DNA of 34,208 nucleotides from Streptomyces diastatochromogenes (GTDB lineage: Bacteria > Actinomycetota > Actinomycetes > Streptomycetales > Streptomycetaceae): assembly GCA_001550305.1 (NCBI GenBank), contig LRTP01000529.1, positions 1-34,208 of the forward strand. The letters run 5' to 3'. A program made the position numbers and the translations under genes. The first letter of the stretch is position 1. Every line of letters begins with the position of its first letter. Below are positions 19,285 through 30,134 of the stretch, piece after piece. Below the pieces are notes generated by a model. The model was given only the letters and a program-made list of their open reading frames with translations. It did not search any database and was not told the DNA's origin.

Positions 19285-19357
19285 GGGGCTATAGCTCAGT
19301 TGGTAGAGCGCCTGCATGGCATGCAGGAGGTCAGGAGTTCAATTCTCCTTAGCTCCA
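19285..19357 (+). tRNA. tRNA-Ala (anticodon GGC), copy 1
   Basis: A 73-nt cloverleaf. The acceptor GGGGCTA pairs with TAGCTCC (19350-19356), with discriminator A at 19357. The D arm contains AGCTCAGTTGGTAGAGC. The anticodon stem CCTGC/GCAGG holds the loop ATGGCAT, hence anticodon GGC reading GCC/GCU alanine codons. The T arm is AGGAG-TTCAATT-CTCCT. CCA is not encoded (ACA follows). It is identical to the copy at 23773, and the identity extends to 78 nt including flanks. GCC is the dominant alanine codon in such genomes, so two copies make sense. Confidence 0.97.
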
Positions 19358-19406
19358 CAGATCAACTCTCTTGAGTTGTCAAAGATCAGCACAGATCAGT
19401 GATGAG

Positions 19407-22424: not shown

Positions 22425-23637
22425 CCCCGATCAGGGTCAGGAAGACGAGACCGGCTCCTTCGTAGAGGGCCGACAACGTCAACTGGGCGCCCGTCTGATG
22501 CAGTTCGAGCCGTCCCGGGCCGTGTGGCACCCACCACAGCGCGTAGGAGCAGAAGACCAGCGACGTACCGACGGCGGTCACCAGCGCCGTACTGACGGCG
22601 GTCATCTGTGCCGCGCCGACGGCGGACGCCCTGCCGCGCGTGGCGAGGATCAGCACCATCGGTACGCACCACACCCAGTGGTGCGACCACGACACCGGAC
22701 TGATCAGCAGCGCCGTGACCGCGCAGGCGGCCACCGCCCAGGCGCGTCGTCCGCGCAGCTCCGCCGCCACGGCGACCCCGAGGCCCAGGGAGCCCGCCAC
22801 GACCGCCGTGGCGACCCACCAGAGGCCCGGCTGAGTGGTGTGCAGCAGCCGGGCCAGTACCCCGCGCAGCGACTGGTTCGCGGTGTCCTCCACGAGCCCG
22901 ACCCGACCCGTTTCGAAGACCATGCGGCTCCAGAAGCGCCATGAGTCGTAGGGCAGGGCGCAGGCAGCCAGCAGGGTTGCCCCGGCGAACGCGACGGCCG
23001 ACCCGCGCACGTGCCGCAACCAGGGGCCTCCGGAGCCCCGCCGTACGTATGCCACGACACCGGTGACCAGCAGGAACGCCGCGAAGAGCGCCGGTGTCAG
23101 CTTGATCGCCGCCGCGAGCCCGATGCCCACTCCTGCCCACCGGTGCCCGGGCCGCCGCGTCAGGTCCCACAGCACCAACACGCCGAGCAGCAGATTGATC
23201 TGCCCGTACCGCACGGTCGTCCACACCGGCTCGCACCACACGGCCGCCGCGGACGCCCACCAGACGCCCTCCACGCGCGCGTGGTCGACGAGCCGTAGCG
23301 ACAGGGCCACGAACACCACAAGAAGGGCCAGATTTCCGGCCGTCGCCAGAGTCCGCATGGTCGACGTGTCCAGCAGCGTCAGCGGCGTGAACAGCAACGC
23401 CGCGAACGGCGGGTAGGTGGTCGGCAGATGGGCCTCGGTCGTACGCAGCGCGTAGAGGTCGCCGCCCGCGCGGACGGTCTCGCCCTCCGCCCGGTACACC
23501 ATCAGGTCGATCATCGACACGTGCGCGGCCCGCTGTGCCCACCAGAAGGCGGCGAAGGACAACAGGCACGCCCCCAGGGCGACGGGCGCACGGCGGCGGA
23601 CATCGGGGAGCGCGATCACGGTCACGAAGGCCGACAC
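22393..23637 (-). CDS. GT87-family polyprenyl-phosphate-mannose-dependent mannosyltransferase-like membrane protein
   Basis: Polytopic membrane protein of 414 residues with about 10 hydrophobic helices. The first outside loop has the acidic motif MIDLMVYRAEGE, and AHLPTTYPPFAALLF and VRYGQINLLLG are typical of GT87 (DUF2029) GT-C enzymes such as PimE, which add mannose from polyprenyl-phosphate-mannose to phosphatidylinositol mannosides or lipoglycans. The Asp in the first loop is the expected catalytic base. GTG at 23637 has GAGGG a few nt upstream. The tail-to-tail overlap with the CxxC gene is 32 bp. The true acceptor (lipoglycan, glycoprotein) is unknown. Confidence 0.86.
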   Translation of the reverse strand: MSAFVTVIALPDVRRRAPVALGACLLSFAAFWWAQRAAHVSMIDLMVYRAEGETVRAGGDLYALRTTEAHLPTTYPPFAALLFTPLTLLDTSTMRTLATAGNLALLVVFVALSLRLVDHARVEGVWWASAAAVWCEPVWTTVRYGQINLLLGVLVLWDLTRRPGHRWAGVGIGLAAAIKLTPALFAAFLLVTGVVAYVRRGSGGPWLRHVRGSAVAFAGATLLAACALPYDSWRFWSRMVFETGRVGLVEDTANQSLRGVLARLLHTTQPGLWWVATAVVAGSLGLGVAVAAELRGRRAWAVAACAVTALLISPVSWSHHWVWCVPMVLILATRGRASAVGAAQMTAVSTALVTAVGTSLVFCSYALWWVPHGPGRLELHQTGAQLTLSALYEGAGLVFLTLIGVRLWRTYRTV

Positions 23638-23678
23638 TATCCCTCATGTCCGCATTGTCCGCACGGCGCGGAATCGAT

Positions 23679-23709
23679 TTGGTGGTCCACGGGGAGGACC
23701 GTGTAATGT
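23679..23709 (+). promoter_or_regulatory. promoter of second tRNA-Ala
   Basis: TTGGTG (23679-23684) and TAATGT (23704-23709), spacer 19 bp, 64 nt before the mature tRNA. A perfect 7-bp hairpin (ATGCGGC-TTC-GCCGCAT, 23748-23764) lies between, likely a leader processed away. It differs from the promoter of copy 1, so only the tRNA unit is duplicated. Confidence 0.4.
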
Positions 23710-23772
23710 TGGCGTCGCCGCCGGGGAAGCCGGGCGACACGGTCGATATGCGGCTTCGCCGCATGGCCACAA

Positions 23773-23845
23773 GGGGCTATAGCTCAGTTGGTAGAGCGCC
23801 TGCATGGCATGCAGGAGGTCAGGAGTTCAATTCTCCTTAGCTCCA
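23773..23845 (+). tRNA. tRNA-Ala (anticodon GGC), copy 2
   Basis: Same 73-nt sequence as 19285-19357, base for base, with identity running from 23770 to 23847. Anticodon loop ATGGCAT gives GGC. CCA is not encoded. It lies in the gap between the GT87 gene start (minus strand) and the convergent ferredoxin-flavoprotein gene, and is followed by a 15-bp hairpin terminator. Confidence 0.97.
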
Positions 23846-23853
23846 CACATATT

Positions 23854-23888
23854 GAAGGCGGGTCACCCGGTCAGGGTGACCCGCCTTC
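23854..23888. terminator. bidirectional terminator between tRNA-Ala copy 2 and the flavoprotein gene
   Basis: 15-bp perfect arms (23854-23868 and 23874-23888) around a 5-nt loop. The plus-strand tRNA and the minus-strand gene ending at 23896 converge on it, so it can serve both. Confidence 0.75.
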
Positions 23889-23895
23889 GTCGTGT

Positions 23896-25515
23896 TCAGC
23901 GGCCGCTGCCGAGCGCCCGACGACCACGGCGCTGGGAGAGGACCGGAAGGTTGTTGCGGGCCGGGGCGGAGGAGCGGCTGTCCTCCTCGATGCGCAGGGC
24001 GAGCGCCGGGCAGCGGCGTACGGCCCGCAGCGCCTTCGCCTCCGCGTACCGGGGCACCTGGGCCTGCGCGACGGTGGGGAAGCCGTCGGCGCCCAGTTCG
24101 AAGACCTCGGGAAGGATGTCCGCGCACAGGCCGTGACCGCGGCACAGTGTCCAGTCGACGTAGATCTTCTGGCGGCTGGGGCCGGCCTCCTCGACCGCCT
24201 GGCCGCCGGGGATGCCGGTGGGCAGCTGACCGCCCTCGAAGAGCGGCAGAACGCCCTCCACGGGCCTTCCGCAGCCATTGCCGAGGACATGGGCGGCCAG
24301 ATCGTCCGTGAACGCCTTGATGGTCGACTCGATGAACATCGCCGAGCCGTCGGGGTGCGAGCAGGCGCCGCGTCTTTTCACGGCCTTGGCGACCTGCTTC
24401 ACGGCCTCCAGGGCGGCCGGTCCGCCGCCGTTGAGGATGTCCTCCAGGCCGCGCGCCGCGGCGGGCAGGCCGAGGTAGCAGGGACCGCACTGTCCCGCGC
24501 TCTCCTCCGCCAGCCACTGGGCCACCCGGAGGGACTCGCCCAGCGGGCACGTCTCCTGGGTGATCGGGAGGATCGCGCCGGCGCCGAGCGCGCCGCCCAC
24601 CGCGTCCAGGGAGTTGCGCGAGACGATCGCCTCGTTGACCGTCGCCGCGTCCAGCCACTTGCCGTGGTAGCCGCCGGTCAGCACGCCCTGCGGCATCGGC
24701 GGGGCGCCGGCCAGCTGGAGCACGTAACGCAGCGGCACGCCGGTGGGGACCTCGATCACCATGGGGCGGGCGACCGCCCCGGAGATGGTGAGCATGACGG
24801 TGCCGGGCTCGTCGTACAGACCGGTGTTGCGGTAGCGGTCGGGGCCGATACGGGCGGCGATGGCCAGCTGCGCGTACGTCTCGGCGTTCGACAGCAGGGT
24901 GGGCGCGCCACCGACGCCGCTCTGCGACGCGCTGATCTTGCGACCCGGCGGGATGGCCGGGCCGCCGTCGATGGAGCGGATGAGCGAAGCGGCCGCTCCG
25001 GTCACCATCCGCACCGGATTGCGCTGCACGCGCGCGCGGAGCGGCGATCCGCGCCGATCGCTGAGGCCGCGCTCGGCCAGCGCGGCCTCCATGGACCGCT
25101 GGGTCGACTCGCGGGTCACCCCGATGACCAGGGTGCGGGCACCCATGGCCTCCGCGGCCAGCAGGGCGCCGTCCAGGATGAGGTGCGGGGCACGGTTGAT
25201 GAGCACCGTGTCCTTGCGGCAGGCGGGTTCGTCCTCACTTCCGTTGACGACCACGACGGGTCGGATGCCCTTGCTGATGGCCGACTCGGCGACCGAGCGC
25301 AGTTTCTTGGCGAAGGGGAAGCCCGCACCGCCGCGGCCCTTCAGACCGATCGCCTCGGCGAGGCCCGCGAGCTGTTCACCGCCCATCGGCTCGAGCGGCC
25401 CGTGCACCTTGAGGTGCATGGGCAGATCGAGCCGTTCAACCAGGTCGAAGCCCGACGTGAGCTGCGGAAGCCCGACGACGCGGACCTCCGGGACGTCGGG
25501 CAGGGCCTCGTTCAC
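23896..25515 (-). CDS. NuoF-like NADH-binding flavoprotein fused to a C-terminal ferredoxin
   Basis: Protein of 539 residues. It resembles the 51-kDa subunit (NuoF) of complex I: FMN/NADH loop GLKGRGGAGFP (57-67), NGSEDEPACRKD (91-102), an SLBB-like region (about 240-300) and the iron-sulfur site ESAGQCGPC (338-346) with a further Cys385. The first Cys of the canonical ESCxxCxPC is Ala340, so the cluster ligand set is changed. The C-terminus (about 450-512) is a ferredoxin domain with CRGHGLC (458-464) and C502-P, the three-Cys pattern of [3Fe-4S] ferredoxins. GTG at 25515 overlaps the upstream stop (GTGA), so it is coupled to the bis-heme membrane gene. Inferred role: passing electrons from NADH to the membrane partner. 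It is not in a nuo operon. Confidence 0.85.
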   Translation of the reverse strand: MNEALPDVPEVRVVGLPQLTSGFDLVERLDLPMHLKVHGPLEPMGGEQLAGLAEAIGLKGRGGAGFPFAKKLRSVAESAISKGIRPVVVVNGSEDEPACRKDTVLINRAPHLILDGALLAAEAMGARTLVIGVTRESTQRSMEAALAERGLSDRRGSPLRARVQRNPVRMVTGAAASLIRSIDGGPAIPPGRKISASQSGVGGAPTLLSNAETYAQLAIAARIGPDRYRNTGLYDEPGTVMLTISGAVARPMVIEVPTGVPLRYVLQLAGAPPMPQGVLTGGYHGKWLDAATVNEAIVSRNSLDAVGGALGAGAILPITQETCPLGESLRVAQWLAEESAGQCGPCYLGLPAAARGLEDILNGGGPAALEAVKQVAKAVKRRGACSHPDGSAMFIESTIKAFTDDLAAHVLGNGCGRPVEGVLPLFEGGQLPTGIPGGQAVEEAGPSRQKIYVDWTLCRGHGLCADILPEVFELGADGFPTVAQAQVPRYAEAKALRAVRRCPALALRIEEDSRSSAPARNNLPVLSQRRGRRALGSGR

Positions 25516-26828
25516 TTAAAGCCTCCGGAAGGGGCGTTCCATGGTTCACCGGAGCCAGGAGCGTCGAAGGCGCCCGGCAGTACGTCAGTCGTGGGACCGC
25601 TGTCGTACGTGTCGTTGGTGTTGTACGTACCGAAGGCGGGGTTCGTCTCACCGTTGTTGTACACATCACTCGTGCCGTACCCACCGGTGGCCGAATTGTC
25701 ATAGACGGGGATGTTGTATCCCGTGTCGGCGAGCGGGTCGTACGCGGAGCGCGGCGCCTCGCCGACCGGCGGCGGCGAGGGGATGGGCCAACTGCCCGAC
25801 GTGCTGCCACCGGCGTCGGCGCGGGGGAACGTCTCCGTCGGCTGCATGTTCATGGGCATCTGGAAGCGCTCGGTCGGGGCCGCGCCTGCGGGGTTCGCGC
25901 CGGGCGTGCCCGAGACGGCCCGGTAGGCGGCCGCGAAACCGGACGTGGCGTCCGCGGCGGCGGGGTCGGCCGGGGTCTGGTACAGCGACTGCTCGGGGGA
26001 CGGCGTGCGCTGCGGGGGTACGAAGGGGGCGCCCGAGGACTGCTGCGCGGGGCGCGGGGCGAAGCCCGGCAGGGAGTTCTCCGACAGGGCGGCACGGGAT
26101 GCCGTCAGGTCCTCGCGGGCCATGCGGCCACCGGCGCCGCCGCCCTCGCCGAGGATCGCCAGGATCCGGTCGGCGACCTTGCGCTTGAAGGGGTGCGGAG
26201 CCGCACGCAGGGCGAGAGCCCCGCCGACCGCGACCAGGCACAGCTCGTACGACACCATGAAGAACGGCTTTGCCGCCCGTCCCGCGAAGAGACCGTGGAT
26301 CAGCGCCGCGCACAGGGCCGGGTACGCCAGCATGTGCATCGCGCGCCAGCGTGCCGCGACCGGTGCCGGGGCCGCGAACTGGTTGCGCAGTGCGCCGGTG
26401 ATGCCTACGAAGATCATGAGCAGCCCGGCCAGGGAGCCGAGGCCGATGAGTCCGGCGCTGCCCTTGACGCCCAGGCTGAAGGGGATCAGCGCGGCGATCA
26501 GGACGGTGTGGTCCAGCGCCAGTTTGATGGTGATGTGCACCAGGAGGAACGCGATCGAGCCGACGGCCGTCACCCGGTGGATGCCCTGTGCCACGATCCG
26601 CTGACGCGTGTTGAGGATGAGCCGGTCCTGGGCGATGAGGCCCCAGATGACGGAACACGTCAGGGAGACGAGCGACAGGACGCCCGCACCGAAGTTGAGG
26701 AAGTCCTGGACTCGGTTGCCTCCGGTCAGCACGACCACGGGTATGAGCAGCAGGACGGCAGCCGTCGCCACCCCGTAGGCCGAGCGGCCCGGTCGGGGAA
26801 GCGTGCTGCCACTGCGACGAGGGTTCAT
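25512..26828 (-). CDS. ferric-reductase-like transmembrane cytochrome b with disordered C-terminal tail
   Basis: Protein of 438 residues. Residues 1-210 hold about six membrane helices with paired histidines His84/His98 and His165/His178 (spacing 14 and 13), the bis-heme pattern of the ferric reductase/NADPH oxidase transmembrane domain. Unlike FRE/NOX there is no FAD/NADPH domain. Instead the protein continues as a Pro/Ser/Gly/Tyr/Asn-rich disordered tail (about 225-438). The missing flavin domain is plausibly supplied by the coupled NuoF-ferredoxin gene. ATG at 26828 has GGGAG 9 nt upstream. The promoter region is AT-rich and carries a clear inverted repeat (26979-26992). The acceptor (iron, quinone or periplasmic methionine sulfoxide) is unknown. 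Confidence 0.82.
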   Translation of the reverse strand: MNPRRSGSTLPRPGRSAYGVATAAVLLLIPVVVLTGGNRVQDFLNFGAGVLSLVSLTCSVIWGLIAQDRLILNTRQRIVAQGIHRVTAVGSIAFLLVHITIKLALDHTVLIAALIPFSLGVKGSAGLIGLGSLAGLLMIFVGITGALRNQFAAPAPVAARWRAMHMLAYPALCAALIHGLFAGRAAKPFFMVSYELCLVAVGGALALRAAPHPFKRKVADRILAILGEGGGAGGRMAREDLTASRAALSENSLPGFAPRPAQQSSGAPFVPPQRTPSPEQSLYQTPADPAAADATSGFAAAYRAVSGTPGANPAGAAPTERFQMPMNMQPTETFPRADAGGSTSGSWPIPSPPPVGEAPRSAYDPLADTGYNIPVYDNSATGGYGTSDVYNNGETNPAFGTYNTNDTYDSGPTTDVLPGAFDAPGSGEPWNAPSGGFK

Positions 26829-26978
26829 AGGGGGTTACTCCCAACGGTTCGGGGAAGCGGTCCCGAAGCCGAACTCTAAGTCGAGCCATACCGATGGGTA
26901 CGAGGTTTGAGTTATTGCGTTGTTATCAAAGTGCGACCAGGTCCTTGTGTTGTCCCGTAGCGTCCCCTTACGCGAAGT

Positions 26979-26992
26979 AATATTTGAATATT
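26979..26992. promoter_or_regulatory. AATATT-TG-AATATT inverted repeat, candidate operator
   Basis: Two AATATT half-sites (26979-26984 and 26987-26992) with a 2-bp spacer in an unusually AT-rich patch of the gap between the divergent bis-heme gene and leuS. A T-run (26999-27005) follows. Such an island in a high-GC genome is usually a protein-binding site; the regulator is unknown. It is about 150 bp from the bis-heme gene start and about 100 bp from the leuS leader. Confidence 0.45.
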
Positions 26993-27079
26993 GTTCAGTT
27001 TTTTTGGCGTGATTGTGACGAGCGGCACGGCGTGTCCGACCCCGTCCCAAGCTCGTCGCGGCGCGCGCGGGGGCTGCGG

Positions 27080-27085
27080 TACCCT
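27080..27085 (+). promoter_or_regulatory. -10 box of the leuS leader transcript
   Basis: TACCCT followed by exactly 6 nt and the ATG of the leader peptide at 27092, so the transcript should start on that codon. No clear -35 is seen. Confidence 0.55.
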
Positions 27086-27091
27086 GACGCC

Positions 27092-27130
27092 ATGCGTGCC
27101 GTACGCCTTCTGCTTAGCGAGCCGCGCTGA
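27092..27130 (+). CDS. leuS leader peptide with three consecutive Leu codons
   Basis: A 12-residue [15 protein letters not shown], with codons CTT-CTG-CTT at 27107-27115. CTT is a rare codon in this genome type. It begins 6 nt after a TACCCT -10 box (leaderless) and ends 44 nt before an intrinsic terminator, then leuS. This is the classical layout of translation-coupled attenuation: ribosome stalling at Leu codons when charged tRNA-Leu is scarce would favour readthrough. Downstream RNA can form a hairpin (27137-27161) and an 11-bp stem between 27121-27131 and 27163-27173 (with one G-U pair), which a ribosome stalled at the Leu codons would block. Confidence 0.75.
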
Positions 27131-27136
27131 TCAGTC

Positions 27137-27199
27137 CCGACCACTGATGACCCGTGGTCGGCATCGGCGCGGCGTCCCCTCCTGTGCGAGGGGATTTTT
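27137..27199 (+). terminator. leuS attenuator: hairpin plus intrinsic terminator
   Basis: First hairpin: CCGACCAC (27137-27144) with GTGGTCGG (27154-27161). Terminator: TCCCCTC (27175-27181) with GAGGGGA (27188-27194), 6-nt loop, then TTTTT (27195-27199), a true U-run rarely seen in this genome type. It lies inside the leuS leader, between the leader peptide and the leuS start at 27246, so it can only regulate leuS. Confidence 0.75.
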
Positions 27200-27245
27200 C
27201 ATTTCTAAGCCGCTGGCAGAGACGATCGATGGAGCTTTGAGGATC

Positions 27246-30134
<2,889 letters not shown>

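Follow-up and report, generated by a model that had tools for sequence, protein, structure and literature searches.

Two overlapping genes in a 34,208-nucleotide stretch of Streptomyces diastatochromogenes DNA (contig LRTP01000529.1 of assembly GCA_001550305.1; the whole stretch is called the window) probably encode one two-subunit transmembrane NADH oxidoreductase that moves electrons outward. MEM is a membrane protein resembling the ferric reductase domain (FRD) superfamily, and NUO is a NuoF-like flavoprotein fused with a ferredoxin. A mechanism is proposed in which NADH would reduce flavin mononucleotide (FMN) in the NuoF domain of NUO, and electrons would pass one by one from FMN to an N3-type iron-sulfur centre with three cysteines and then to the fused ferredoxin, also with three cysteines. 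The ferredoxin would reduce a cytoplasmic haem held by H84 and H165 of MEM, from which electrons would cross the membrane to an outer haem (H98/H178) and reach an acceptor outside, with ferric iron, quinone, oxygen or a cell-wall partner as candidates. The cofactors, the complex, the electron direction and the acceptor are thus proposals read from the sequence of these genes:

25512 to 26828, minus strand: MEM, FRD-like membrane protein of 438 residues (open reading frame, ORF)
23896 to 25515, minus strand: NUO, NuoF-like flavoprotein fused with ferredoxin, 539 residues (ORF, Pfam)
25512 to 25515, minus strand: stop/start overlap of MEM and NUO, 4 nucleotides, GTGA (sequence)

The pairing of MEM with NUO is not a matter of chance. 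The 4-nucleotide overlap, claimed in an original prediction made from the letters of this DNA, was confirmed, and the same stop/start offset was found in 68 of 79 named loci (the named loci are the best 80 of at least 559, with 79 from Streptomyces and one from an 'Actinobacteria bacterium'). Counting the genome of the window, 28 of 41 genomes in the first search had MEM; NUO adjoined MEM in 24 of 25 fetched loci with the window counted (23 of 24 for relatives only), the 25th being truncated at a contig end. Furthermore, the pair was present in 20 of 20 wider regions, of which 14 had already been counted and six were new places. A class sample of 246 genomes held 95 MEM places in 86 genomes, at least 52 of them with an adjoining NUO by the NUO matches listed; 39 of the other 43 were fetched, and 25 of these had NUO nearby on the same strand, including two in which NUO and ferredoxin sit upstream of ApbE. 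The class-sample total was 77 of 95 places, window included (G052, G054, G099 and G098:C168 left out). Co-occurrence across genomes had been suggested as a check on the prediction, and adjacency proved to be conserved in many families.

The features of MEM, from which its assignment was drawn, are the following:

26202 to 26720, minus strand: FRD core, residues 37-209 (alignment with relatives; range in the VIA-align model 30-214)
26535 to 26579, minus strand: histidine pair H84 and H98 (H-x13-H) of transmembrane helix 3 (TM3), proposed haem ligands (alignment)
26295 to 26336, minus strand: histidine pair H165 and H178 (H-x12-H) of TM5, proposed haem ligands (alignment)
25515 to 26201, minus strand: tail, residues 210-438, disordered in the model

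By visual count, the AlphaFold model of MEM has about six membrane helices, followed by the long disordered tail; the predicted local distance difference test score (pLDDT) is about 70-90 in the core and below 50 from residue 251. The first helix, before residue 37, is missing from more distant relatives in the alignment. H84, H98, H165 and H178 did not vary among the 17 aligned proteins, the window's MEM counted, and in a larger set of conservation rows (83 for MEM, 69 for NUO and 64 for ferredoxin, from 80 fetched regions that cover part of the places found), each was retained in all 82 readable MEM rows. The four-histidine pattern was seen in 77 of 80 named loci, the remaining three being truncated at contig ends. 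The original prediction had placed these histidines in an FRE-like membrane domain without a flavin domain, and their positions stand as given. Like other members of the FRD superfamily (NOX, FRE, STEAP, YedZ/MsrQ), MEM carries four histidines in TM3 and TM5, with the spacing of NOX2, whose histidines are at 101/115 and 209/222 (PMC3591440). It differs from the superfamily in that it has no C-terminal flavin adenine dinucleotide (FAD)/NAD domain, and its proposed donor is a separate NuoF-type protein; no Pfam match to a FAD or NADPH domain was obtained in MEM at E values up to 1, and the tail is disordered. A comparison of MEM with Protein Data Bank sequences gave no meaningful match (best E 0.19).

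The NOX2 spacing, together with the structural match to SpNOX and NOX5 given below, would suit a NADPH-oxidase-like producer of superoxide or peroxide, and yet this is a very improbable role for MEM and NUO. The equivalent of the NOX-specific His-119 (PMC3591440), at the +4 position in TM3, is Lys102 in MEM; the six commonest residues at this place, which account for 80 of 83 rows, do not include histidine, and the FAD/NADPH domain is absent. NOX identity was rejected on the missing His-119 and flavin domain, and a NOX-type oxygen reaction appears disfavoured because His-119 is replaced by Lys102. Identity with MsrQ was rejected as well, since the MsrQ/YedZ signature, a change of the first TM3 histidine to arginine (PMC3591440), was not found and His84 was kept in every readable row.

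The tail of MEM should be cytoplasmic, as judged from the helix count and from positive loops assessed by eye, and could hold NUO. Short motifs in it (AYR, WPxPSPPP and GEPWxxPSGG) are conserved among Streptomyces orthologues at residues 300-435 (window 25524-25931), and ends of the PSGG[YF] type occur in at least 56 of 79 loci. This long tail with its conserved motifs, as well as the presence of ferredoxin as a separate gene in 50 of 69 NUO loci, would fit NUO acting as a NADH:ferredoxin reductase for soluble partners, with MEM mainly an anchor or regulator through its tail and haem transfer secondary. Such a role seems improbable, because the haem histidines are kept in every readable row but several relatives in the 17-protein alignment have a short tail or none.

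The NuoF-like flavoprotein with a ferredoxin domain, the other half of the original prediction, was recovered by Pfam, with matches to Complex1_51K (6e-31), NADH_4Fe-4S (1.1e-16), Fer4_15 (5e-15) and SLBB (2e-6):

24865 to 25353, minus strand: Complex1_51K FMN/NADH domain, residues 55-217 (Pfam)
24700 to 24792, minus strand: SLBB domain, residues 242-272 (Pfam)
24289 to 24528, minus strand: NADH_4Fe-4S (N3-type) domain, residues 330-409 (Pfam)
23989 to 24165, minus strand: Fer4_15 ferredoxin domain, residues 451-509, C458-x2-H461-x2-C464...C502-P (Pfam)

The best sequence matches of NUO among solved structures were hydrogenase beta subunits and NuoF-type chains. NUO resembles the 51-kDa flavoproteins NuoF, HydB and HoxF in its FMN/NADH, SLBB and N3-type domains and in the equivalents of E95, E97 and D103, residues which hold NADH in Aquifex NuoF (PMC6560083); of the 69 NUO rows, 68 keep the corresponding E94 and all keep E96 and D102. 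It differs from these proteins in sitting with an FRD protein and in the first N3 cysteine, whose place is taken by alanine in 66 and serine in 2 of 68 readable rows. In the window this place is Ala340 (24496-24498) and C343, C346 and C385 are retained, the other three cysteines being present in every readable row. The ferredoxin carries only three cysteines, of which the first two were kept in 64 of 64 rows and the third in all 61 readable; the variable place of its C-x2-H-x2-C...CP motif is histidine in 46 of 64 rows and arginine in 13. Ferredoxins with CXXHXXC(X)nCP-type motifs were isolated as [3Fe-4S] proteins, the His type having a raised potential (PMC6237146). Those are free small proteins near P450 genes, whereas the like motif of NUO is fused to a NuoF-like reductase. 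With three cysteines at the N3-type site and three in the ferredoxin, both iron-sulfur centres of NUO are unusual, a correction to the original prediction, and the cysteine counts suggest that both may be [3Fe-4S] centres.

It is unlikely that the pair runs inward, with electrons entering MEM from outside or from the quinol pool and leaving NUO for a cytoplasmic acceptor such as P450 or NAD+. NuoF chemistry is reversible in principle, which counts for inward flow, and the potential of NADH is about -320 mV. Mycobacterial P450 enzymes are indeed served by ferredoxins of the same cluster motif, but the His-type [3Fe-4S] ferredoxin of M. tuberculosis lies at -31 mV, far above NADH, so that NAD+ reduction would be uphill (PMC6237146). 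ApbE in the wider module, described below, moreover suggests flavin-linked transfer in the outward direction, of the kind proposed for MsrQ-like systems.

Several observations weigh against an outward NADH oxidoreductase made of MEM and NUO. At the glutamate pair of NuoF to which E184 belongs (its place within the pair being presumed), the window has Ala-Ala; the rows have Glu 57, Gln 9 and Ala 3 at the first place, and Glu 28 and others 41 at the second. With this change and the lost N3 ligand, the NADH and cluster chemistry may differ. The AlphaFold model of NUO is poor, with a mean pLDDT of 41.7 and a predicted template modelling score of 0.27 from an alignment of 19 close orthologues only. 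MEM scored 10.4 bits against Pfam Ferric_reduct (PF01794), below the cut-off of 28, which three scanned relatives in the same gene position exceeded (29.6, 35.4 and 36.5 bits). The structural Z scores (VIA) of the MEM core were 13.3 with SpNOX, 13.1 with STEAP2 and STEAP4, 12.7 with STEAP1, and 12.0 and 11.7 with NOX5, but cytochrome b561 (12.6), b6f (11.7) and a designed bundle (10.3) came near to SpNOX, and a Z of about 13 is attainable by helical bundles through arrangement alone. In Foldseek, the best E values were 0.015-0.05, with none at or below 0.001 and unrelated BAR domains at 0.063. The fold match can be taken as support for FRD membership, not as proof. As for linkage, no NUO was nearby in 14 of the 39 re-examined MEM places (3 of the 14 at contig ends), and outside the class NUO was present in only 4 of 20 regions from 18 genomes, some of these regions lying near contig edges; because of the latter count, the FRD protein is seen to occur also without NuoF.

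In relatives within the class, the genes for the proposed NADH oxidoreductase usually belong to a larger module. The 80 regions were scanned with profiles of MEM, NUO, ApbE and ferredoxin derived from the first relatives, and the usual order was found to be ApbE, MEM, NUO and a separate ferredoxin. Pfam confirmed ApbE in two scanned relatives, Ferric_reduct above cut-off in three, and Complex1_51K and Fer4_15 in one each. ApbE accompanies 44 of 69 NUO loci, none of them fused (41 with separate ferredoxin, 3 with none found); 14 have a fused ferredoxin, none with ApbE; and 11 have neither ApbE nor the fusion (9 with separate ferredoxin, 2 with none found). A maximum-likelihood tree of 70 rows, midpoint-rooted for drawing only, places the window and the other 14 fused rows in a single clade with support of 100/99, and the fork just below it is weak (92/45). 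Based on this nesting, the fused clade is most likely derived from the wider module by ferredoxin fusion and ApbE loss. The original prediction is corrected in this respect too, as the module in the class usually includes ApbE and the window clade does not. Since the clade lacks ApbE, its outer haem would probably reduce the acceptor without a covalent flavin relay. Neither ApbE nor FMN_bind was found on the contig of the window (C760), the own-genome matches being on C249, C457 and C589, and in G011 and G014, genomes of the same genus, the ApbE form is additionally present at another place. In a phylum sample, MEM was present in 34 of 198 genomes, and ApbE in 19 of 20 regions fetched outside the class.

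Two side observations concern these modules. Several FRD-NuoF sets can occur in one region (three in L034, two in L044), with response-regulator- and sensor-kinase-like ORFs recognised by eye near them. In the genome of the window, ApbE/FMN_bind genes (L227 on G000:C249, L228 on G000:C589) stand beside ORFs of 459-472 residues that, on inspection by eye, resemble long-form FRD proteins carrying a NAD domain of their own.

A protein with one hydrophobic helix is encoded immediately ahead of ApbE in 50 of 56 loci (47 under slightly different filters); examples lie near 9857-10276 of L038 and at 5013-5336 of L041, both within L033-L138. The N-terminus is net positive in 49 of 50, and the tail is of low complexity and rich in Ser, Gly and Thr. 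A C-terminal [ST]x[GA]S was found in 41 of 50 one-helix proteins versus 13 of 795 background ORFs of the same loci, a comparison in which the candidates were chosen for a stretch of hydrophobic residues and for many small and polar ones in the tail, somewhat favouring such endings, and in which the background may contain a few one-helix proteins. ApbE flavinylates [ST]GA[ST]-like motifs, and flavinylation was demonstrated for FMN_red proteins whose predicted sites lie on an unstructured C-terminal extension (PMC11334425). Just 5 of the 50 match the strict [ST]GA[ST] motif; [ST]GGS is the most frequent ending (24), and the one scanned example had no FMN-binding Pfam match. The one-helix proteins are thus a lead as candidate minimal ApbE substrates. 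By a crude hydropathy test, a possible signal helix precedes ApbE in only 2 of 56 loci, which fits poorly with an outer tail. A five-part module could be envisaged from a one-helix carrier, a signal-less ApbE, a bis-haem FRD protein, a three-cysteine NuoF and a [3Fe-4S] ferredoxin. The carrier would receive a single FMN on its last residue ([ST]x[GA]S), attached by ApbE before export, and its disordered outer tail would act beyond the membrane as a swinging flavin arm; such a carrier would be minimal, flavinylated without any FMN-binding domain. Only tentatively, the window pair may be seen as the streamlined end of this electron export module, in which a Streptomyces clade swapped the flavin arm for direct haem-to-acceptor transfer. 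No gene for a one-helix protein was seen by eye in the approximately 0.4 kb between MEM and the neighbouring leuS-like gene.

The closest earlier description is that of related clusters. Meheust et al. 2021 (PMC8238504) reported MsrQ-like flavinylation clusters, mostly actinobacterial, and counted 31 that include a NuoF-like (PF10589) gene; they proposed that NAD(P)H is the donor in at least some of the clusters. The window pair has in common with them a six-helix two-haem FRD protein and a NuoF-like gene. The criterion for those clusters was PF01794 close to an FMN-binding or ApbE gene; the window differs in having neither on its contig, in its fused ferredoxin and in a MEM below the PF01794 cut-off. 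Because of the missing FMN-binding/ApbE gene and the low PF01794 score, the method of that study should not list the window pair. The available text of PMC8238504, supplementary tables aside, names no ApbE-free members, no lost N3 cysteine and no ferredoxin, whether separate or fused. In the open-licence literature, which covers few subscription journals, no paper was found on NuoF paired with a ferric-reductase-like membrane protein in Streptomyces, and none for S. coelicolor SCO2569, SCO2572 and SCO2573, the guessed gene numbers. New here are the usual ApbE-FRD-NuoF-ferredoxin form, the fused ApbE-free clade, the missing N3 cysteine and the one-helix [ST]x[GA]S protein.

A displaced complex I subunit was rejected as an identity for NUO, as a separate canonical NuoF-type gene is present on contig C15 of this genome, with NuoE- and NuoG-like ORFs beside it by eye. 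NUO reached 168.6 bits with the NCBIfam NuoF equivalog, below the cut-off of 558.65. The combination, called unusual in the original prediction, fits none of NOX, MsrQ and complex I NuoF, but pairing of NuoF-like with MsrQ-like genes was already on record in the 31 clusters of 2021. The prediction's reading of the parts and of their pairing is, as far as the sequences tell, supported, and at the level of sequence neither of its own grounds for refutation, a lack of adjacency in relatives or a membrane protein without haem, was borne out.

By NUO, the closest named record among the matches listed is Streptomyces sp. NBC_01549, with 99% identity. The divergent neighbour of MEM on the opposite strand is the leuS-like gene, recognised by eye, with its likely start only about 0.4 kb away, and a tRNA-Ala gene lies beyond the end of NUO. 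An Rfam scan of 23500-27400 returned nothing except tRNA, and a promoter scan at the locus found none; terminator-like sites, which all lay on the plus strand, numbered 4 versus 1.4 expected. Two tRNA-Ala (GGC) genes in the same orientation (window 19285-19358 and 23773-23846) bound about 4.4 kb with a helix-turn-helix regulator and a major facilitator superfamily transporter, both recognised by eye, and a GT87 protein, which looks like an insertion or duplication next to a tRNA.

If the proposal is true, Streptomyces and many other actinobacteria may have, in addition to complex I and the other NADH dehydrogenases, a further way of oxidising NADH at the membrane, and electrons could leave the cell by it. 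A NuoF module and an FRD module would be combinable as separate subunits, and the likely evolutionary path would lead from a free ferredoxin with ApbE to a fused ferredoxin without it. The relatives, in turn, offer a testable candidate for a minimal flavinylated tail.

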